DNA of 64,000 bases. Origin: Nitrospirota bacterium. Its GTDB lineage: Bacteria; Nitrospirota; Nitrospiria; Nitrospirales; Nitrospiraceae. The position numbers were made by a program, and so were the translations under genes. The stretch is from the NCBI GenBank assembly GCA_040755395.1, contig JBFMAX010000007.1, forward strand, positions 1 through 64,000. The letters run 5' to 3'. The notes below the pieces were generated by a model. It was not told where the DNA came from and made no database searches. It was given only the letters and a program-made list of their open reading frames with translations. Below are positions 37,101-49,994 of the stretch, one piece after another (within the stretch, counting starts at the first letter, position 1; every line of letters starts with the position of its first letter).

Positions 37101-37700
37101 CTACTCCAGCGGGATCGTGATCGCAATGCCGCCCATCACGTCGTTCAGCTTGAAGTCGCGCTTGGGGCTCAACGGGTGGCTGTTGTGACAGCTCACGCAG
37201 ACCTTCGAGACGGCGCGGTCGGCGTACACGGCCTGAAAATATCGTTTGCGGCCGCTCGTGACGATGCCGGTGAACGGGCGGTCCGGTTGGGCGCTGACCG
37301 TTTCCAACGCCTTGCGTTCCAGCGGGGTCGCCGGCGCGTTCCGTTGGTAGATCGGCCACAGGCTGATCAACCGGTAGCGGATTCCGCCGCCGCCTTCGGC
37401 GACCAGCTTGCCGGAATGCTGGAGGAACTGAGCGGGCAAGGGAAGCGCGTTGTTCTGCTCCCAATGTTCTTCGGCGTTCACGATGCCCTTCTCCTGCATC
37501 CGATTGACGACCATCGTCGTGTAAATGGTGCGATCCGCCTGGATCACCGAGTGGACGTAATCGGCGACTTTTTCCGGCGGGATGCCGGCCGGAAGGCTGC
37601 CGGCGTCTTTGGCGTGCAACGCGACGGCGGCGACACCGAGACCTGCTGCGACGACGGCGGCGAGCGCGCAGCCGTCGCCCGCTCTCCTGAACCCGTTCAT
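37101..37700 (-). CDS. Haem-binding Tll0287-like (DUF3365) exported protein
   Basis: A 199-residue protein with a signal or anchor segment (ALAAVVAAGLGVAAVALHA) and the DUF3365 fold. One covalent haem motif is present as CVSCH (168-172) in the context KVCVSCHNSHPLSPKRDF. The last block VMGGIAITIPL is the family end. The start overlaps the stop of the upstream kinase gene as ATGA, so it is translationally coupled. Such proteins sense redox state or bind small gases; here it probably provides the periplasmic haem input of the kinase pathway encoded upstream. The same domain is fused to a cyclase at 47952. Confidence 0.85.
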   Translation of the reverse strand: MNGFRRAGDGCALAAVVAAGLGVAAVALHAKDAGSLPAGIPPEKVADYVHSVIQADRTIYTTMVVNRMQEKGIVNAEEHWEQNNALPLPAQFLQHSGKLVAEGGGGIRYRLISLWPIYQRNAPATPLERKALETVSAQPDRPFTGIVTSGRKRYFQAVYADRAVSKVCVSCHNSHPLSPKRDFKLNDVMGGIAITIPLE

Positions 37701-40168
37701 GGCGTCCGTTCCTCCTTCTGCGAGGGGGCGTCGACGGCGGGAAGGGTGATCCAGCAGGTGACGCCCTGCCCTTCCACGCTTTCCAGGCGGATGTCGCCGC
37801 CGAACTTGACGACGATGCGCTTCGCGATCGTGAGGCCGAGCCCGGACCCTTCGCCCTGCGGTTTGGTGGTAAAGAAAGGATCGAAGACCTTGGTCAGGTG
37901 CTCGTGCGGGATACCCGGGCCGGTGTCGCGGATCATGATGGTGATCGCCGACGCGTCGCGTTCCGTGCGCAGCACCAGCGAGCCCTTGCCGCGCATGGCC
38001 TGGACGGCGTTGGCCAGGACGTTGACGAACGCCTGGCGGAGCTCGTCGGGCAGGGCGCTGACGAGCAGGTGCGGCTGATAGTATTTCTGAGTCTCGACGC
38101 CGAGGGTCTCGGACCCGCTCTGCACGATCGCCCAGGCCTGATCGAGCTGCGCGTTCACGTCCACGGGCACGCGCTGGTCCTTGGCCTCGCGGATCGTCTG
38201 GCCGGCGAAATCGCGGATGACGGCGGCCATCCGGCGCCCGTGCTCGACGATGTCTCTGGCGTAGGCTTTGATCCGGCCCAGGTCCGTCTCTTCCTGGATG
38301 GCCTCGCCGAGTCCGAGAATGCCGAACAACGGGTTGTTCAATTCGTGTCCGATGCCGGCCGTGAGCACGCCGAGGCTGCCGGATTTCTCCGCCTGAATGA
38401 GCTGATCCTGAAGGCGGCTCTCTTCGGTCGCATCCCGCAGGACGAGGCCGATCCGCCGGCCCTCGCCGGGACGGCCGCCCAGACTGAACCATTCGTACCG
38501 GTAGAGGTGCCGGCCGAGTTGGAGTTCGCGCCGCCCGCCTCGCGCCGAATGGGCCAGCGCGGGCGCAAGCGGGTCGCGGGCCTCGCCCAACGGGCCAATG
38601 TCCGGCGCGCCGGTCTTCTGCAACGACCCGTTGCCGGCGCTCAGGAGTTCCTGGCGCAGCCGTTGTTGCACGGACGGGTTGACGCGCAGCAGGTCGAACA
38701 GGGTGGTCGGGCGCGGTTCGTCGTCTTCCGCAAGCGTGAACGCGTCCTTACAGGCTCGATTCATGTATTGGACCTGCTCGGCCTGGTCGACCATGATGAT
38801 GGGGGTCGGCACGGCGTCGAGGATCTGATCCGTCGATTTCTGCAGGTACTGGACTTCCTGGCTTTTCAATTCCACCTGGGTGGTCAATCCGGCGAAGGCG
38901 GCTTCCAGTTGGGCGTTCATCCGATTGATCTCTTCGGCCAAATCTTCAAGCTCGTCGCCGGTCCGGATGGTGAGCCGATCGCGCAATTCGCCCCGACCGA
39001 TCGACCGCGCCGCTTCCTGTAATTGGCGAACCGGGGTGACGATCCGGCCGGCGGCGAAAGAGCCCAGCATGATCAGCAGCCCGACGGCGACCAGACCGAA
39101 TACGGAAAGCCAGGTGAAGAGATGGCGGATGGGCGCGAACAGCTCGCTCGAGGATTGCCAGACGAATGTATGCCAGGCGGTGTCGGAGGAGCCGTTGGTG
39201 GCCCGGCTCGTTTCCGGCAGCGGCGCGAAGCCGATGATGGACGACGTCCGGCCGCCGTGCCCGTCGCTGGGCGCGTTCACCCAGCCGGGCGAAAGCGGCG
39301 TGACGAGCGGGATCAGCGCGGTGTCCGCCAGACGCACGCCGGTGGGTAGGATCGGACAGTTCATCACGATGCCCCGGCTGTCGATCAGCATCACGTGGCC
39401 GGTCTTGCCGAACCGGATCGGCGAGACGGAGGGCGAGAAGAATTCCTTCGCGTCCAGGACGCGGTGCAGGACGCCGATCGCTTCGTAGCGGATGCTGTCC
39501 ATCACCGGCACCGACAGGGTGAAGACGTAGGTCCCGATGCGGTCGTCAAACGCGACGTCTTCGATGTAGGTGGTGCCGACGCCTTTGTTGAAGGCGCCCT
39601 GCCACCACGCGGCCTCGCCGTTCGCATACGGGGCGTCCGCGTTCAGGCTTGCCACCAGGGCGCCCATCTTGTCCGTGAGGAACAGGGCCTTGGTGGCCGA
39701 ACGCACGGCTTCGGGCAAGGGTTGGCCGGGATCGCTGTTCGAGCCGGTGTAGTGCTGGCGCAGGAGTCGCGCGAGCTTGTTGTCGGTGATGTCTTTGATC
39801 AAAGCCGGGTCGCGGGCACGCCACCGGGCGGCCTGCGCCTCAAGCGCCGCGCGCGCCTGGTCTTCCGAAAGGGACTCGATCCGGTCCCGCCGCCGTTCCA
39901 ATTCGGCCACAATGACGGGATCGATCGCGATGCGCGAGGTGCGGGCGATCTCCTCGCCGACGACGAGATCGAGCTTCCGGGCCGTCTCGGTGGCGAGGGC
40001 CTTGAAGCTTTCGCCGCTGACTTCGCGGATCTCGCGGGAACCCTGCAGGAAGGCCATGAGGAGGCCGGCGAAGAGGGGCACCACGCCCACCAACAGCATG
40101 GAGAGGATGAGCTTGCCCTTCAACCCCCAGCGGAGGCGGCGTCCTGTGAGCGGTCCGTCACGGATCAT
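37697..40168 (-). CDS. Membrane sensor histidine kinase with Cache domain
   Basis: An 823-residue kinase. N-terminal helix (LILSMLLVGVVPLFAGLLMAF), a large extracytoplasmic Cache-type domain (about 45-345), a second membrane helix (LSVFGLVAVGLLIMLGSFAAG), HAMP (QLQEAARSIGRGELRDRL), a PAS domain (DQILDAVPTPIIMVDQAEQV), then HisKA with His608 (LTAGIGHELNNPL) and the ATPase domain (NVLANAVQAM, DTGPGIP, GEGSGLGLTIAKRI). Start and stop overlap both neighbours by four bases. With the upstream response regulator and kinase and the downstream haem protein, this looks like a single signalling pathway. A small extracytoplasmic ligand is expected. Confidence 0.9.
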   Translation of the reverse strand: MIRDGPLTGRRLRWGLKGKLILSMLLVGVVPLFAGLLMAFLQGSREIREVSGESFKALATETARKLDLVVGEEIARTSRIAIDPVIVAELERRRDRIESLSEDQARAALEAQAARWRARDPALIKDITDNKLARLLRQHYTGSNSDPGQPLPEAVRSATKALFLTDKMGALVASLNADAPYANGEAAWWQGAFNKGVGTTYIEDVAFDDRIGTYVFTLSVPVMDSIRYEAIGVLHRVLDAKEFFSPSVSPIRFGKTGHVMLIDSRGIVMNCPILPTGVRLADTALIPLVTPLSPGWVNAPSDGHGGRTSSIIGFAPLPETSRATNGSSDTAWHTFVWQSSSELFAPIRHLFTWLSVFGLVAVGLLIMLGSFAAGRIVTPVRQLQEAARSIGRGELRDRLTIRTGDELEDLAEEINRMNAQLEAAFAGLTTQVELKSQEVQYLQKSTDQILDAVPTPIIMVDQAEQVQYMNRACKDAFTLAEDDEPRPTTLFDLLRVNPSVQQRLRQELLSAGNGSLQKTGAPDIGPLGEARDPLAPALAHSARGGRRELQLGRHLYRYEWFSLGGRPGEGRRIGLVLRDATEESRLQDQLIQAEKSGSLGVLTAGIGHELNNPLFGILGLGEAIQEETDLGRIKAYARDIVEHGRRMAAVIRDFAGQTIREAKDQRVPVDVNAQLDQAWAIVQSGSETLGVETQKYYQPHLLVSALPDELRQAFVNVLANAVQAMRGKGSLVLRTERDASAITIMIRDTGPGIPHEHLTKVFDPFFTTKPQGEGSGLGLTIAKRIVVKFGGDIRLESVEGQGVTCWITLPAVDAPSQKEERTP

Positions 40169-41223
40169 GGTCCGTTCTCCGGCGGAACCGGTTCGGCCGG
40201 CGGGAGCTCGATGCGGAACGTCGAGCCGGCACCCACGCGGCTGTCCACGTGGATCTTGCCGTGCAACCTGGTCACGACGGCCTTCGCATTGTACAGGCCC
40301 AAGCCTGTGCCTTTCCCCGGCGGCTTCGTCGTGAAAAACGGCTCGAAAATCCGCCCGATCAAGTCCTGCGGGATGCCGCAGCCGGTGTCCGACACGCTGG
40401 CGGTCACGACTCCGTTCTCGCGGCCGGTCCGGAGCGTGAGCGTGCCGCCCCGCTCCATGGCCTGGACGGCGTTGGAGATCAGGTTCACGAAGACGTGCAA
40501 CAGCTCGTCCGGGTTCCCCGTCACGATCGGCTCGGGCGCATAGCGCCGAACCACCGTGATGTCCTGAAAGGCGACGGCATGGCGGGCGATCTTCAGCGCC
40601 TCGTCCAGCTTGGCGTTCAGATCGACGCGCGCGGATTCTTCGCCGACGGATCGCCTTGCGTAGCGCGTGAGATCGCGGCAGATCGCGCTGGTGCGGTTGA
40701 CGGCCTGGATGATGTCCCGCGCATGCTCCCGCACGACCGCCGGGTCCTGTTCTTCGAGTAGATTCTCGGCGAGGCCCAGGATCAGTTGCAAGGGATTGTT
40801 GATGTCGTGCGCGATGCCGGCGGCGAACGAGCCCACTCCGGCCAGCTTCTCGGCATGGAAAAGCTCGGTCTGCAGTTTGGTCTGGTGTTGAATCAGAGTC
40901 CAGAGCAGTCGGGCGACCGCGCCGCTCAGCACTTCGGCGCCGGGACCCTTGTGGGCGAGGACGAACCGCTCCATCTCGGGGTCCCCCGTGACGTCCAGGA
41001 TGAGACCGACGCCGTGATTCGCGATGAGATCACGGACTCCGTCGGTGACCGGAATGTTCAGGTCCCTCGCCCGTTGCAGGCCGGGCGCCAGAGGATTTTT
41101 GTCCGTGATCCCGACGATGACGATGCCCGGAACCTGGTGCAACAGATCCAGGAGGGCGGTCCCGCCCTTGCCGGCGCCCAATATGGCCACCTTCGTGGTG
41201 TGGGATGGAGCCATCGCGCGCAC
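40165..41223 (-). CDS. Histidine kinase with N-terminal Rossmann (dinucleotide-binding) domain
   Basis: A 352-residue kinase with no membrane segment. The first about 105 residues are an NAD(P)-binding-like Rossmann domain (VAILGAGKGGTALLDLLHQV; IVIVGITDKNPLAPG; LILDVTGDPEMERF), as in dehydrogenase N-termini. A HisKA domain with His139 (FAAGIAHDINNPLQLILGLA) and an ATPase domain (NLISNAVQAME, DTGCGIP, GKGTGLGLYNAKAV) follow. This architecture suggests that a dinucleotide or a metabolite controls the kinase. An alternative start is ATG 41214. Overlap by four bases with the downstream kinase indicates coupling. Confidence 0.85.
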   Translation of the reverse strand: MRAMAPSHTTKVAILGAGKGGTALLDLLHQVPGIVIVGITDKNPLAPGLQRARDLNIPVTDGVRDLIANHGVGLILDVTGDPEMERFVLAHKGPGAEVLSGAVARLLWTLIQHQTKLQTELFHAEKLAGVGSFAAGIAHDINNPLQLILGLAENLLEEQDPAVVREHARDIIQAVNRTSAICRDLTRYARRSVGEESARVDLNAKLDEALKIARHAVAFQDITVVRRYAPEPIVTGNPDELLHVFVNLISNAVQAMERGGTLTLRTGRENGVVTASVSDTGCGIPQDLIGRIFEPFFTTKPPGKGTGLGLYNAKAVVTRLHGKIHVDSRVGAGSTFRIELPPAEPVPPENGP

Positions 41224-41342
41224 GCTTGTTCGCCGACCCGGAGACGTGCCGAAGGCCGGGACTTCCTGCGCCGCCCCGTCGCCTTCCGAAGGAGAAACCG
41301 TCTCTCCTCCGGAAGGGGAGGGATCAGGGAGAGAGCGACTCG

Positions 41343-41777
41343 TCAGAGATGCGCGATCTCCCGCTGTTCCATGGCGCGGGCGACGGCGGCCTTCAGTTTG
41401 TCGCCTTCCACCGGTTTGACCAGGTAGTCCACCACGCCGTCTCTCATCAGTGACGTCGCCATGTCGGTGTCGGGGAAGCCGGTCAGGACGATCAGGGGAA
41501 CGCGCGGGTATTCTCTCCGGAAGTACGCGATGGCTTCCACGCCGTTGATCTTGGGCATGCGGATGTCGCAGATCACGACGTCCAACATCACGCGATTTTC
41601 GCCCGTGTTGATGATTTCGATGGCCTTCTCGCCGTTCTCCGCTTCGAGCACGTCGTAGCCGGCCTTCTGCAAGGTCATGCGCACCACTTTTCGGATGTCC
41701 GGTTCGTCATCGACCACGAGGATGCGGCCGTTGCCGGTTGAGGAACCGAAAAGAAGATCCGTTTTGTACTCCGTCAT
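41343..41777 (-). CDS. Receiver-only response regulator
   Basis: A 144-residue receiver (RILVVDDEPDIRKVVRMTLQ; phospho-acceptor Asp in VVICDIRMPKINGVE; switch Thr in LTGF; Lys in LVKPVEG). No output domain, so it probably works by protein contact or in a phosphorelay. ATG 41777 has AAGGAGG nine bases upstream; the frame is open further up without a good start. First gene of the set leading to the two kinases and the haem protein. The 119-base gap to the next gene contains a G/C repeat hairpin (GGAGAAACCGTCTCTCC). Confidence 0.9.
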   Translation of the reverse strand: MTEYKTDLLFGSSTGNGRILVVDDEPDIRKVVRMTLQKAGYDVLEAENGEKAIEIINTGENRVMLDVVICDIRMPKINGVEAIAYFRREYPRVPLIVLTGFPDTDMATSLMRDGVVDYLVKPVEGDKLKAAVARAMEQREIAHL

Positions 41778-42109: not shown

Positions 42110-42536
42110 GGTCCAACCTCCCGCCGGCCTGTCATGACCTTGTTGCAGCTCGACACGCGCAACATCCGTACCAGCACCAGGCCTGATGACGGTCATGACC
42201 GGGGCGCGCCGGAAAGCTGAAGATTTTCGAGAAGGTTCGAACGGGTGCGACGATCGCCTTCTCTGCGCGCAGTCTTCCGGAGTGCGCGGCGAGGCGTATC
42301 GAAATCGATACCCCGGCGTATACGATTCGATAACAGTCCTGAGGGCCTTTCGGACGATCGGCAGCATGAAACTAGCCAATAGCTAGCAGCGAATAGCTCG
42401 TCATAGATCAGAGCTATTTGCTACCCGCTACTCGCTATTTCAGAGCTGTTCGCTACTGGCTGCTGGCTATTTCCAGAGCGGGGAATTGCGTTTGCCGAGG
42501 GGAGTGGAGTATTTTTACGTCGTTCCTTCGGGCTCG
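42110..42536. other. Gene-free stretch containing a heptad-type hairpin
   Basis: No gene is visible. From 42376 to 42476 the word GAATAGCT and its complement recur (CAATAGCTAGCAGCGAATAG, then CTATTTGCTACCCGCTACTC), forming an inverted repeat with mismatched arms about 25 bases long. It lies upstream of the BolA-like gene and may affect its expression. Confidence 0.6.
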
Positions 42537-42776
42537 ATGATCACGCAGGACGCGCTGACCAACTATATTCGGCAGATCATGCCGGATGCGATGGTGTCGG
42601 TGACCGATCGCACCGGGACGATGGACCATCTCGTCATCACGGTGGTGTCGGATCACTTTAAGGGCAAGAACCTGCTGGACCGGCATCGCATGGTGTACCA
42701 GGCCCTGGCGGCGCCGATGAAGGACGGCCGGATCCATGCGTTGGAGATCACCGCTCGGACGACGGATGAAACGTGA
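42537..42776 (+). CDS. BolA/IbaG family protein
   Basis: A 79-residue protein with the BolA class II-K fold: N-terminal helix (QDALTNYIRQIMPDAMVSVT), the strand-loop block DHLVITVVSDHFKGKNLLDR and the C-terminal helix with HRMVYQALAAPMKDGRIHAL. In characterised systems BolA binds a [2Fe-2S] cluster jointly with a monothiol glutaredoxin through a conserved His; H is present in HRMVYQAL and in DHF. A Grx4-type gene lies 104 bases downstream, supporting this pairing. The start is taken as ATG 42537; the frame is open upstream. Confidence 0.85.
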   Translation: MITQDALTNYIRQIMPDAMVSVTDRTGTMDHLVITVVSDHFKGKNLLDRHRMVYQALAAPMKDGRIHALEITARTTDET

Positions 42777-42865: not shown

Positions 42866-42880
42866 TGATGGAGGGTGAAC

Positions 42881-43204
42881 ATGCGCGACCCGATCGAAGA
42901 GGAAATCCAGCGCGAGATCAAAACCCACAAGATTCTGATCTATGGCAAAGGGACGAAGACGATGCCCATGTGCGGGTTCACCCGCGAGACGATGCAATTT
43001 TTCGACAAGTACGGCTATCCCTACGAAGTCATCGACGTGCTGTCGAATCCCGCCAAGCGCGAGGCCTTGACCAAGATGACCAATTGGCCGACGCTCCCCA
43101 AGGTCTTCATCGACGGCCAGTTCTACGGCGATACCGACATTCTCGATCCCATGGAGAAGAAGGGGGAGGTCGAGCCGCTGCTCAAGAAAGCGTTCGGCCG
43201 TTAA
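42881..43204 (+). CDS. Monothiol glutaredoxin (Grx4 family)
   Basis: A 107-residue glutaredoxin. The active-site Cys31 is in the family block KGTKTMPMCGFTRETMQFF, matching the CGFS type with T replacing S. Other conserved blocks are LPKVFIDGQFYGDTDIL and EKKGEVEPLLKKAF. The start is ATG 42881 behind GGAGGG; a GTG two codons earlier is less well spaced. Such proteins hold a [2Fe-2S] cluster with BolA and move clusters or sense iron; the bolA-like gene lies just upstream. Confidence 0.9.
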   Translation: MRDPIEEEIQREIKTHKILIYGKGTKTMPMCGFTRETMQFFDKYGYPYEVIDVLSNPAKREALTKMTNWPTLPKVFIDGQFYGDTDILDPMEKKGEVEPLLKKAFGR

Positions 43205-45737: not shown

Positions 45738-47181
45738 CCTGCATCCTGCGTGAAAAGTGCTGCCTTTAGAGTTTGAGTCTCTCGATCTGGTGTAGGGCAT
45801 ATTGCCAGGCAGTTTCCCGAGCGCCACTGGCGGGTAAGGCCAAGCAGGGTCGATTGTCCGTTCGACGACGCACAGCCGGCATCAACAGGATGTGGTGCCG
45901 AAGGGTCTGCAACGTGGCATTCTGAAACTCGGGCGGCAGGCAGAGCCGCTTGAACCAATTCATCAGGTTGTAGGCTAACAGAAGCAGATGGAAATACGTC
46001 TCGTTGGCCATGAAGTGGCGGGTGGGGATGCTGCCTAGGGCGTCATCCCCTTTGAGCTGTTTGATGAGCAACTCCACCCCGGTGCGATCGTTGGAGAAGC
46101 GCCAGAGGTTCAGCGGTTGCAACGGCAGATTCGTGACCAAGACTTGGTCGTGATACTTGCCAAGCTTGACCAGTGTCAGTTGCTCGCTCGGTTCTTCGGA
46201 CTGGGGTCGGCGGGCGACGACAACGCGAGAGGGCCGCGGCCACCGAATGGGCTGATAGCGGAACTCGGCCACCTCGATGCCACGGCTGGGGCTCACATAC
46301 CGCAGATGCACCAGCTTGCGTTTGAGCGGGGCCGTCAGACGGGCGACAATCACGAACCGGGCCCGCTGCGCTTCGAGCCACTCGACCAGCGTGTGGGCGT
46401 AACACCCGTTGTCTGCGCGGACAATCACCAACCGGACCCCCGCCAGAATCTTCCCGAAGCACGCCGCCAGCAAGTCGCGGGTTCCACTGGCGGTATGGGC
46501 ATCGCCCGGCCGCAACTCGCCATGCCAGAAGTCCTTGGTCCGCCCCTCGAAGCAGAGCAGCGGGTGGTACGACGGCCGGCCGCGCTTGATCAGGTTGTAG
46601 CCGACCCGGGCGTGCTCCTGGTTGCCATAGACCACCAAGACGGTGGAGTCGATATCGAAGATCAGCCGCGTCGGCCGGTTGGGTCGTGCCATCATGCGCG
46701 CCAGGAAGCGATCGTGCACCGCGCGCAGTTGGAGCAGGGCTGTCGGGGCGATGCGCAGCAAGAATCGCCGCAACGTGGACGGGTTCGGATAGGCGTGCAG
46801 CCCCGTGAGGTACTGGAACACGCCGTTCTGCCGCAGCAACTGGGTCGTCTCGATGCGTTCCAGCCCGAGGATCATCGGATAGAGCAACGCCAGCAGCATT
46901 TGGCCGACGCTGTAACGATTGTTCCGCTGCGTCACTCGGAGTTGGCGGGCGATCGCGTCCTTGAAGCCGATGCGCGACAAGAACCGGTGCAAGAGATACA
47001 CGCCGCCATAATGCGTCAGCGTCGTCGTGCCAAACCTGATCGTCAGCTTTCGAGGTCCCCGGGGCATGGGAGTGACAGCGACTGAAAAAGTAGCTTTCAC
47101 TCAATCCCCTAGTACCGGGCTCTGACAGCATAGACGGTGGCTGAGAAAACGGTCTGTTCATCAATTGACGCAGGATTCAGG
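45738..47181 (-). mobile_element. Intact IS1380-family insertion sequence
   Basis: The ends are CCTGCATCCTGCGTGAAAA (from 45738) and, on the other strand, CCTGAATCCTGCGTCAATT (ending 47181), imperfect inverted repeats sharing CCTGnATCCTGCGT. They flank one complete transposase frame. The element is about 1.44 kb. I see no convincing target duplication, so the exact ends may be a base or two off. Confidence 0.85.
45766..47100 (-). CDS. IS1380-family transposase
   Basis: A 444-residue DDE transposase of normal length without visible frameshift. Blocks include LTHYGGVYLLHRFLSRIGF near the N-terminus, FDIDSTVLVVYGNQE (first catalytic Asp), IVRADNGCYAHTLVEWL (second Asp) and the C-terminal GVELLIKQLKGDDALG region with the catalytic Glu. 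Sequence shows no decay, so the element could be active. It sits between the transglycosylase and SDR genes without interrupting either. Confidence 0.9.
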   Translation of the reverse strand: MKATFSVAVTPMPRGPRKLTIRFGTTTLTHYGGVYLLHRFLSRIGFKDAIARQLRVTQRNNRYSVGQMLLALLYPMILGLERIETTQLLRQNGVFQYLTGLHAYPNPSTLRRFLLRIAPTALLQLRAVHDRFLARMMARPNRPTRLIFDIDSTVLVVYGNQEHARVGYNLIKRGRPSYHPLLCFEGRTKDFWHGELRPGDAHTASGTRDLLAACFGKILAGVRLVIVRADNGCYAHTLVEWLEAQRARFVIVARLTAPLKRKLVHLRYVSPSRGIEVAEFRYQPIRWPRPSRVVVARRPQSEEPSEQLTLVKLGKYHDQVLVTNLPLQPLNLWRFSNDRTGVELLIKQLKGDDALGSIPTRHFMANETYFHLLLLAYNLMNWFKRLCLPPEFQNATLQTLRHHILLMPAVRRRTDNRPCLALPASGARETAWQYALHQIERLKL

Positions 47182-47220: not shown

Positions 47221-47955
47221 TCAGATTCCCCAGCCTCCGCTCACCTGAATATTCGCCCCGTTCACGTAGCGTGCGTCGTCCGATAAGAGAAATCGCACGA
47301 TCGCTACGGTATCGGAGACAGTGCCGACGTAGCCGGCGGGGATGCGCTTGACCATGCCGGCCAGTTCTTCCGGCGGGGCGCTGCCGGAGTCGATGAAGCC
47401 CGGCGAGATCGCGTTGACGGTAACGCCGTGCGGGGCCAGTAACTTGGCCAGGGTCCTGGTCAGAATGAGGACGCCCGCCTTCGCGATGTAATGCGCCGTC
47501 ACGTCCGGCTGAGCCGCCATCTGGTCGGCGTTCGCCATGCTGAAATTGATGATGCGGCCGGATTTTCTCGCCTTCATGCCCGGCGCCACCGCTTGAGCCA
47601 GATAAAAGATCGGATGCAGGTTGCCGCTGAACATCTCTTCCCACCCCGCCGGAGTTTCCTCGAACAGGTTCACGCGATGGTACGGGCCGGCGCAGTTGAT
47701 CAATGCGTCGATCCGTCCCCAGTGCTGCTCGACCTGGGCGGCGAAGTTCTTGGCGGCGGTCGGGTCCGACACATCGCACCGGACGGCTAACGCCTGGCCG
47801 CCGCGTTCGACGATGCCGGCGCGGGTCTTGTCGGCCTCGGCTTCGCTGGTCCGGTAGCAGAGGGCGACGGCCCAGTGTTGGGCGGCCAGGTCCAGGGCGA
47901 TGGCTCGGCCGATGCCCTTCGCGCCTCCGGTAATCAGTGCGACGCGGGTGTTCAT
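47221..47955 (-). CDS. Short-chain dehydrogenase with altered YxxxK site
   Basis: A 244-residue SDR. The cofactor loop TGGAKGIG (residues 9-16), the NxxG-type block LINCAGPYHRV and the Ser region (INFSMAN) are normal for FabG-like proteins, as is the end block (YVNGANIQVSGGWGI). The usual YxxxK site reads HYIAKAGV: the Lys is present but the residue four before it is His, with Tyr three before it. This is either a lost codon or a real change. ATG 47955 overlaps the upstream stop as ATGA and follows GGGAGG, so translation is coupled to the cyclase gene. Substrate unknown. Confidence 0.8.
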   Translation of the reverse strand: MNTRVALITGGAKGIGRAIALDLAAQHWAVALCYRTSEAEADKTRAGIVERGGQALAVRCDVSDPTAAKNFAAQVEQHWGRIDALINCAGPYHRVNLFEETPAGWEEMFSGNLHPIFYLAQAVAPGMKARKSGRIINFSMANADQMAAQPDVTAHYIAKAGVLILTRTLAKLLAPHGVTVNAISPGFIDSGSAPPEELAGMVKRIPAGYVGTVSDTVAIVRFLLSDDARYVNGANIQVSGGWGI

Positions 47956-49994
47956 GACACATCCTCCCTTCGTGATCCGGGCTTGTCGGGGACGGCGCGG
48001 AGTCCGGCCGTCGCGCACACAACCCGGTTCCGTCCTGTTGCCTTTGCTTGATAGAGCATCTCGTCGGCCGCGCGGATCAAGTCCGGCACCGAACGCGCGT
48101 GCGTCGGATAGGTGGCGACGCCGACGCTGACGGTGATGTGATCGGGAGCCGCCGGCGCCAGTTGGCGGAGCGACAAACCGGCGACCGCGATCCGCAAGCG
48201 CTCGGCTACGGCCGCGGCGCCCTGGGTGTCCGTCTGGGGCAGGACCACCGTGAATTCCTCGCCGCCGTATCGGGCCAATACGTCGCTTTCCTTGAGCGCA
48301 CGGTTGAGCGTAGCCGCGACGGACTTCAACACCAGGTCGCCGACCTGATGCCCATAGGTGTCGTTCACCTGCTTGAAATGGTCGAGGTCCAGCATCAGCA
48401 GGCTCACGATCTGCCCTTTGCGGCGTTCGTCCGGCAGGATCATTTTGGCCAGAAATTCTTCCAGGAACCGCCGGTTATAGGCGCCGGTGAGTTCGTCGAT
48501 CAACGCCCGCCGCTTGGCGCGCTCCAGGTGTTGGATATGTCCGATCATCGGCGCCGCAACGCTCACCAGCGCCTCGACCCACTGGCGGGTCTCGTCCGTC
48601 CAACAGCGTGGGACCGAACCGGCTAGATGCACGACGCCGATGGTGTGGCCGCCCATGACCAGCGGGATGCACCAATAGGAGCCCGGCCCGTCGTTCGAGA
48701 GACTGAAGGAACAGGTCAGGCCCTGCGTCACGTCCTCGACCTTGTACTCACGCCCCGCCCGAATGACCGGACAGTGCGATGGGCGGTCCCACACGGGATA
48801 CGAATCCACGCGCAGGTCCTCCCGCTTGGGCGACGACCACACCAGTTCCAGATGGGCCTCCGATCGATTCAGCCGGAGAATCAGAATTTGGCGCAGCGGC
48901 AGCGCCTGGTGCAAGGTGTGGCTGAGTGTCCGGTAGACCTCTTCCTCCGAAATGGCCTGCTGAATCACCTGCGTTTTTTCGTGGAGTTCCATCAAGCGGC
49001 GGTTCAGCAACGTCAACGCGTCCGCCTGGCGCTGGAGCTCCTGCGCGCGCTCACGTTGGTTCATGCTGATAGTTTCGTGCATGCGCCGGAACTCGCGCCA
49101 GACGGTCCGTACCTCTTCTCCCATGGCGGTGTCGGTCCATTCCGTCAGAGGCGAAGGCTCGCGGACATCGCCTCGGCCCCCGGCGATGTCCCGCATGCGG
49201 GCGCCCAGGTGCTTGAGGGGCGTCGTCACCACGTGACGCGTGGCGAACATCACGAGGCCGAGGATGAGGACGCCGGCGCCAAGACCGGCGCCGAGCAGGA
49301 TCCACTGGTCGCGCTTCACCGCCCGCAGCGGCGCATCGATGGGAATGATCAGTTCGATCCCGCCGATCACGCCGTTCAGGCGGAAGTCGCGTTTGGAACT
49401 GGCCTCATGGCTGTTGTGGCAGCTCACGCAGTTCGGGAGGATGGCCCGGTCGGCCGCAAGGAACCGGATGACTTCCGTGCCGCCCAGGGTGTCGCGCCGG
49501 CTGTAGATGCGGTCGCCGTGCTCGGCCAGGAACCGGAATCCCTCCTGGTGAAACAGGTCGGTCGCGGCGTGCTCTTTGTTGATCGGCCAGGGGCTGATCA
49601 GTCGGAGGCGGTAGGACTGGGGGGTCAGGACCATCATGTCGGTGACATCCTGCATCAGTGCGGAGGGGAGCGGCGGCGCGGAGGCCAGCCGGTGATAGTC
49701 GGCCGGGACCAGTGCGCCGGCCTTGAGCAGGCGCGGGAGGACGCCGGTCAGGTAGGCGTGACGCTCCGTCCGTACCTGTGCGAGCAGCGCCTCTCCGGCC
49801 GTCGTGACCTGCTGTTCCAACAACCGGACCTTCTGCCGTCCCGGCAGATACCAGGCGACGATCACCAGCAACAGCATCAAGACCGGGGCAAGGAGCAGGA
49901 GCAGTTTGGCGGTGACCGACCAGTGGCGCGAACCGAGGAGATCCGGCGCGGCGGGTGTCGCGAGAGGCTCGGAAGGAGAGGGCAACGGCGTCAT
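47952..49994 (-). CDS. Haem-sensor diguanylate cyclase (DUF3365-HAMP-GAF-GGDEF)
   Basis: A 680-residue membrane cyclase. Helix 1 (AKLLLLLAPVLMLLLVIVAWYL) and helix 2 (WILLGAGLGAGVLILGLVMFA) flank a periplasmic Tll0287-like domain with the haem motif CVSCH (189-193) in PNCVSCHNSHEASSKRDF. A HAMP, a helical linker, a GAF domain and a GGDEF domain (GGEEF at 577-581) follow; the inhibitory site position reads KESD rather than RxxD, so feedback inhibition may be lost. The sensor block is closely similar to the stand-alone protein at 37101. The gene overlaps both neighbours by four bases. It probably links a redox or gas signal to c-di-GMP. Confidence 0.9.
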   Translation of the reverse strand: MTPLPSPSEPLATPAAPDLLGSRHWSVTAKLLLLLAPVLMLLLVIVAWYLPGRQKVRLLEQQVTTAGEALLAQVRTERHAYLTGVLPRLLKAGALVPADYHRLASAPPLPSALMQDVTDMMVLTPQSYRLRLISPWPINKEHAATDLFHQEGFRFLAEHGDRIYSRRDTLGGTEVIRFLAADRAILPNCVSCHNSHEASSKRDFRLNGVIGGIELIIPIDAPLRAVKRDQWILLGAGLGAGVLILGLVMFATRHVVTTPLKHLGARMRDIAGGRGDVREPSPLTEWTDTAMGEEVRTVWREFRRMHETISMNQRERAQELQRQADALTLLNRRLMELHEKTQVIQQAISEEEVYRTLSHTLHQALPLRQILILRLNRSEAHLELVWSSPKREDLRVDSYPVWDRPSHCPVIRAGREYKVEDVTQGLTCSFSLSNDGPGSYWCIPLVMGGHTIGVVHLAGSVPRCWTDETRQWVEALVSVAAPMIGHIQHLERAKRRALIDELTGAYNRRFLEEFLAKMILPDERRKGQIVSLLMLDLDHFKQVNDTYGHQVGDLVLKSVAATLNRALKESDVLARYGGEEFTVVLPQTDTQGAAAVAERLRIAVAGLSLRQLAPAAPDHITVSVGVATYPTHARSVPDLIRAADEMLYQAKATGRNRVVCATAGLRAVPDKPGSRREDVS

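Follow-up and report, generated by a model that had tools for sequence, protein, structure and literature searches.

Bacteria have few known proteins that sense the NAD(H) pool directly, and the textbook case is Rex, an NADH/NAD+ sensor that joins a Rossmann sensing part to a winged-helix DNA-binding domain. Two-component systems usually take their input through PAS, GAF, Cache, or HAMP domains. Nitrospira-type bacteria include important nitrifiers that must spend much energy on making NADH; to our knowledge, little is known about how they sense redox state. Here we describe a four-gene signaling operon from a Nitrospirota bacterium of the family Nitrospiraceae (GenBank assembly GCA_040755395.1; genome size, 4.1 Mb). 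It lies within positions 1 to 64,000 of contig JBFMAX010000007.1, a stretch of 64,000 nucleotides (nt) that we call the window and to which all unmarked positions refer. The operon, on the minus strand at 37101-41777, encodes a response regulator (RR), a soluble histidine kinase (HK1) with an N-terminal Rossmann domain that we call ROSS, a membrane histidine kinase (HK2), and a c-heme protein. We propose, as a reading with an even chance of being right, that it is a two-input, one-output redox relay. If so, HK1 would read NAD(H) inside the cell while the heme/Cache pair would read the periplasm, and the way in which these bacteria sense redox state would become testable with one purified domain.

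Two further groups of described proteins are close to parts of this locus. Acetaldehyde dehydrogenases (DmpF/MhpF) and the Gfo/Idh/MocA enzymes share the NAD-binding half and the GxGxxG loop with ROSS and give its best sequence and structure matches, but ROSS lacks their catalytic/substrate domain, and its chain runs on instead as a signaling helix. The heme protein resembles the sCache_heme/DUF3365/Tll0287 family (PF11845), whose fused members behave as nitric oxide (NO) sensors and whose stand-alone members are proposed to be redox related (2026 preprint, PMC12889525). Like the latter it stands alone, but it is co-encoded with a separate dCache kinase. We found no NAD/Rossmann histidine kinase, Rossmann chemoreceptor or cyclase sensor domain, or Nitrospira redox kinase described in the open-licence papers searched. 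The ROSS input module, its spread over different outputs, and its insertion into a receiver appear undescribed in that literature and in the family libraries.

A two-component operon conserved among relatives

The RR gene (41343-41777, minus strand) encodes a single-domain regulator of the CheY/Spo0F type with 144 amino acids (aa; Pfam Response_reg, 2.8e-29) and has an AGGAGG ribosome-binding site upstream. After a gap of 119 nt follows HK1 (40165-41223, minus strand; 352 aa), which starts at either GTG 41223 or ATG 41214 and in which ROSS (40882-41199, minus strand) precedes HisKA and HATPase_c domains. HK2 (37697-40168, minus strand; 823 aa) has the Pfam architecture dCache_1-HAMP-PAS-HisKA-HATPase_c, and the last gene (37101-37700, minus strand; 199 aa) encodes the Tll0287-like heme protein (PF11845, formerly DUF3365; 1.5e-18). 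HK1 and HK2 overlap by 4 nt (40165-40168), as do HK2 and the heme gene (37697-37700). A first-pass annotation of the same DNA had listed these four genes in this order, with the last three overlapping by four bases each, and had assigned them to a response regulator, two kinases, one of them with a Cache domain, and a heme DUF3365 protein. Our gene calls and Pfam matches agree with it throughout, including its remark that the pieces are known families: the receiver, the HisKA and HATPase_c domains of HK1, and dCache_1 of HK2 were all recovered, and each catalytic part falls in a known family.

The gene content, order, and strand of the operon recur in 23 orthologous loci of the host family and in more loci from other families, with protein identities mostly of 46 to 80%. 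The acidic pair, phospho-Asp, Thr/Ser, and Lys of RR and the H, N, G1, and G2 boxes of HK1 are intact in 32/32 orthologous loci. Searched by pattern, the HK2 boxes were found nearly as regularly (H, 32/32; G2, 32/32; N, 29/32; G1, 30/32). By these motif counts and by Pfam, kinase boxes and receiver active-site residues are conserved as in known two-component systems; the operon differs from them in that a soluble kinase and its membrane-bound paralogue share the locus with one single-domain regulator, and in the Rossmann input of HK1, which lies outside the usual set. Conserved synteny and intact motifs together rule out that the four genes arise from chance or a frame artifact.

Linkage was counted in the 54 genomes with a close relative of HK2, where "close" means an E value of about 1e-88 or lower, a limit placed by eye, so that intermediate HK2 relatives (42 to 51% identity, few genera) are omitted from the count. 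HK1 with its ROSS domain lies within 3 kb of HK2 on the same strand in 50/54 genomes, the heme gene lies within 4 kb of HK2 in 50/54, and all three are linked in 46/54; several of the misses sit at or close to contig ends. The first-pass annotation had proposed a search for the same gene order in other genomes and had held that unlinked genes in relatives would speak against the system; in these genomes the genes are, for the most part, linked. When each gene is taken to start at the codon closest to the stop of the gene before it, the 4-nt overlap is seen between HK1 and HK2 in 20/32 loci and between HK2 and the heme gene in 11/30, so it is frequent among the loci, not universal. A scan of contigs for relatives returned only two close ones, both from Nitrospirae.

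The N terminus of HK1 is a Rossmann domain

About 115 residues of HK1 precede HisKA and have no curated Pfam match. ROSS begins at residue 9 and covers about 105 of them, with the conserved motif VAILGAGKGGTALLDLL. Its elements are a GAGKGG loop, an acidic end of strand beta-2 (GITDK), a DVTGDP loop, and a C-terminal helix that runs into the coiled coil of the kinase. Neither Pfam nor NCBIfam holds a dedicated family model for ROSS, and Pfam found no DNA-binding domain in HK1. We built a ROSS alignment of 23 rows from distant members; its profile matched acetaldehyde dehydrogenase (E = 8e-6) and Rex (5e-4) among Protein Data Bank (PDB) entries, the similarity to Rex being weak but real. Against NCBIfam, the ROSS match spans positions 2 to 73 of the 285 in the enzyme profile, and Rex was matched at 2e-4. 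GFO_IDH_MocA matches 23/23 members, at best with 1.3e-6. The ROSS of HK1 itself scores under the curated Pfam cut-off of that family (24 bits), which is exceeded by fusions of ROSS to a sigma-54 activator (28.4), to a HisKA_3 kinase (24.6), and to a chemoreceptor (28.2).

The AlphaFold2 (AF2) model of ROSS has a mean predicted local distance difference test score (pLDDT) of 90.4 and the beta-alpha order of a Rossmann fold. Its best solved neighbors in Foldseek are NAD-dependent acetaldehyde dehydrogenases and Gfo/Idh proteins, at template modeling (TM) scores of about 0.66 to 0.74, with Rex lower in the list. Alignment, hidden Markov model matches, and modeling all assign ROSS to the Rossmann folds of the NAD(P) type. 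The first-pass annotation had seen in this N terminus a Rossmann part reading NAD(P) or a metabolite; the fold is borne out by profile and by model, and NAD(P) is its predicted ligand. A working enzyme can be rejected, since only the cofactor half is present, the match ending at position 73 of 285 and the rest of HK1 being HisKA and HATPase_c.

Where beta-2 ends in an acidic residue, that residue is the usual contact to the NAD ribose and, by an established rule, favors NAD over NADP. Asp or Glu closes beta-2 in 101 of 106 unique ROSS segments; these segments were gathered through the glycine motif, so that only the acidic residue counts independently. The glycine-rich loop is itself invariant, both across the 23 distant members and among those receiver-inserted copies that were aligned.

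ROSS heads many other signaling proteins

ROSS is not confined to this operon, a view that we considered and rejected. We searched 346 Nitrospirota genomes and found matches at E <= 1e-4 in 222, the weakest of which may be true dehydrogenases, as one match (L183) is; that protein, a Gfo/Idh-type enzyme, was rejected as a sensor and treated as an outgroup match. Within the host's order, ROSS was detected in 97/100 genomes. Besides the HisKA kinase described here, the architectures that we read include a HisKA_3 kinase with a NarL-type regulator, GAF-GGDEF and GGDEF-EAL proteins, and a hybrid of about 1120 to 1230 residues with the order GAF-PAS-HisKA-HATPase-REC-REC-GGDEF. ROSS also heads a sigma-54 activator (L186:4853-6148), possibly a one-component NAD(H)-responsive transcription factor.

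The HisKA_3 kinase sits in a conserved rplI-glyA-nrdR-kinase-regulator cluster in 9/9 loci compared, where the names rplI, glyA, and nrdR are those that we take from sequence recognition, without a database search. The NarL-type regulator that follows it is 91 to 96% identical within the family, which suggests that this ROSS system is core to the regulation of the order. The host genome has its own copy on contig C6 (about 127.0 to 128.8 kb; L072:6979-8758), a second ROSS kinase followed by the NarL-type regulator.

Outside the phylum our sample consisted of plasmid records, the whole-genome searches having covered Nitrospirota only, and these records yielded one ROSS-like sensor. It comes from Acetoanaerobium noterae, a member of the Bacillota (L203:3998-4777), and is a soluble protein resembling a chemoreceptor, in which a Rossmann domain that scores above the Pfam cut-off forms the N terminus and is followed by an MCP signaling domain. 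Its Rossmann domain is 26 to 28% identical to ROSS, sits on a very long tree branch, and likely belongs to the same family. The record itself is a 2.6-Mb "plasmid" that is likely a chromosome. A match from an Enterococcus plasmid record is a true dehydrogenase and was set aside. The position of ROSS at the head of many output types is the pattern of an input module, and judged by this pattern ROSS is a recurrent input domain across Nitrospirota, found once outside it. The likeness to Rex lies in the Rossmann sensing part, and the differences in the missing winged helix and in the outputs, which for ROSS are a kinase, a cyclase, a sigma-54 activator, a chemoreceptor, or a receiver; for ROSS, a response to NADH is a prediction.

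A receiver domain with ROSS inserted

In at least 13 genomes, from several genera and two families, a receiver domain (REC) carries ROSS within it (loci L069, L071, L138-L151, L188-L191, L193, L194, L196, and L200). The insert consists of ROSS and the beginning of the kinase helix of HK1 (SEKLAG) and lies between receiver strands beta-4 and beta-5, at helix 4. There are 14 such copies, and one more without the C-terminal match (genome G003); they are 46 to 77% identical to the first copy. In 11 aligned copies neither the phospho-Asp, Thr, and Lys of the receiver nor the glycine loop of ROSS varies. The AF2 model of REC:ROSS, with a mean pLDDT of 73.8 (moderate confidence), places all receiver elements on either side of the insert and a Rossmann domain inside, and solved receivers (3jte; TM score, 0.76 on the target) can be aligned from one side of the insert to the other. 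An assembly error was considered and rejected, given 14 copies across genera and two families with invariant active-site residues.

In the tree the inserted copies cluster with the ROSS of HK1 (99/99), separate from the versions found in HisKA_3 and hybrid proteins, and their receiver part resembles the RR of the operon. REC:ROSS therefore originated in this operon, and recombination of RR with HK1, its neighbor, would be the simplest route. In one genus (g24; nine genomes read) REC:ROSS occurs alone and the close HK2 is gone, so that it replaces the operon there; in genome G098, HK1 has decayed beside HK2 and two REC:ROSS copies are present.

The insertion with active-site residues kept argues for a coupling of ROSS to the receiver. 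A wider reading, which we offer tentatively as somewhat short of probable, is that ROSS is a general NAD(H)-sensing input module of bacterial signal transduction, which Nitrospirota have joined to almost all kinds of output and which one lineage has placed within a receiver, at helix 4, to give a protein of about 264 residues that would join phosphorylation and the cytoplasmic dinucleotide state. REC:ROSS would be a natural example of an allosteric domain insertion in the commonest bacterial signaling fold.

Proposed mechanism and alternatives

In the relay that we propose, ROSS of HK1 would be half of a dehydrogenase, devoid of catalysis, and would bind an adenine dinucleotide in the cytoplasm, with NAD+/NADH as the likeliest ligand. 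Binding would move the C-terminal helix, which is continuous with the dimerization helix of the kinase, and so set the autophosphorylation of HK1, whichever direction that response may take. The dCache domain of HK2 would take a periplasmic input, aided by the co-encoded periplasmic c-heme Cache protein, which would report the periplasmic redox state or a heme ligand. Both related kinase cores would phosphorylate the same RR, and RR may pass the state onward through protein contact or a phosphorelay.

The heme protein has an N terminus resembling a signal peptide and the heme motif CVSCH. With 68 bits against a cut-off of 24.1 for PF11845, and with CXXCH in 30/30 orthologues, it is by sequence a member of the c-heme Cache family, as the first-pass annotation had it. 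It could nevertheless be a plain periplasmic electron carrier and a chance member of the operon, leaving the sensing to dCache and ROSS. This would accord with the redox-related rather than NO-sensing role proposed for stand-alone members (PMC12889525) and with the 13 PF11845 matches in the host genome, but the gene keeps its position directly after HK2, with a stop/start overlap in many genomes, and we consider the carrier role unlikely. One further PF11845 protein lies 6 kb from the operon (47952-49994, minus strand). It has the same heme-Cache domain, but there fused to GAF and GGDEF domains rather than encoded as a separate protein beside a kinase, and it is a predicted heme-regulated diguanylate cyclase.

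A different small molecule could bind ROSS, such as ATP/ADP/AMP, coenzyme A (CoA), S-adenosylmethionine (SAM), or an enzyme-related metabolite (an aldehyde or amino-acid semialdehyde). ROSS gives subthreshold matches to CoA_binding, DapB_N, Semialdhyde_dh, and NAD_binding_3 besides GFO_IDH_MocA, and the place of the HisKA_3 paralogue between nrdR and the NarL-type regulator, next to glyA, would fit nucleotide or one-carbon metabolism. However, in profile and in fold ROSS comes closest to NAD-dependent enzymes and Rex, and the acidic end of beta-2 is the usual contact for the NAD ribose, which makes another ligand rather improbable. It is about equally improbable that the four genes are cotranscribed and serve two pathways, HK1 with RR on one side and HK2 with the heme protein on the other, with separate regulators elsewhere. 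The 119 nt between RR and HK1 and the independent losses of HK1 (in G098) and of the heme gene (in G083 and G199) would suit such a split, whereas 46 genomes keep HK1, HK2, and the heme gene linked in order, with tight overlaps. The kinase cores of HK1 and HK2 are, moreover, 41% identical over 225 residues with no gap and look like paralogues. Close paralogous cores are often tied to a common partner specificity, and together with the single RR in the operon this paralogy suggests two inputs that converge on one regulator. A ligand-free, degenerate ROSS scaffold that holds the dimer or docks a partner protein would suit the short domain (about 105 residues) and the lost catalytic domain (positions 2 to 73 of 285), but an invariant glycine loop and a near-constant acidic residue would be needless in it, and we regard it as very improbable.

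Several points weigh against the two-input relay and its NAD(H) ligand. A Rossmann fold can also hold CoA, SAM, or FAD, or have no ligand at all, and the nicotinamide half of the ROSS site looks shortened. In none of the loci read does RR carry an output domain. L185, from another family of the class, also retains RR, HK1, and HK2 but lacks the heme gene beside them, and in L065 the heme gene is broken; the heme gene is therefore not strictly required. HK1, for its part, is lost beside HK2 and the heme gene in G098. The BolA and glutaredoxin genes next to the operon are, as neighbors, only suggestive.

Neighboring genes and minor observations

Divergent from the operon, and not counted in it, are genes for a BolA-like protein (42486-42776, plus strand; Pfam BolA, 1.5e-17) and an adjoining glutaredoxin (42875-43204, plus strand; Pfam Glutaredoxin, 2.5e-17), a flank that is kept in 23/23 family loci read. 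On the other side, a convergent gene for an AI-2E-type transporter flanks the operon in nearly all of the 23. A gene at 45766-47100 (minus strand) that by eye resembles a transposase lies between the conserved operon flank and a short-chain dehydrogenase/reductase (SDR) gene. Elsewhere in the assembly, two short open frames (G000:C1:783665-783835 and G000:C14:81229-81396) give N-terminal matches to the alpha subunit of type II dimethyl sulfoxide (DMSO) reductase; the first is at a contig end, and the two may be pieces of a molybdoenzyme gene split in assembly.

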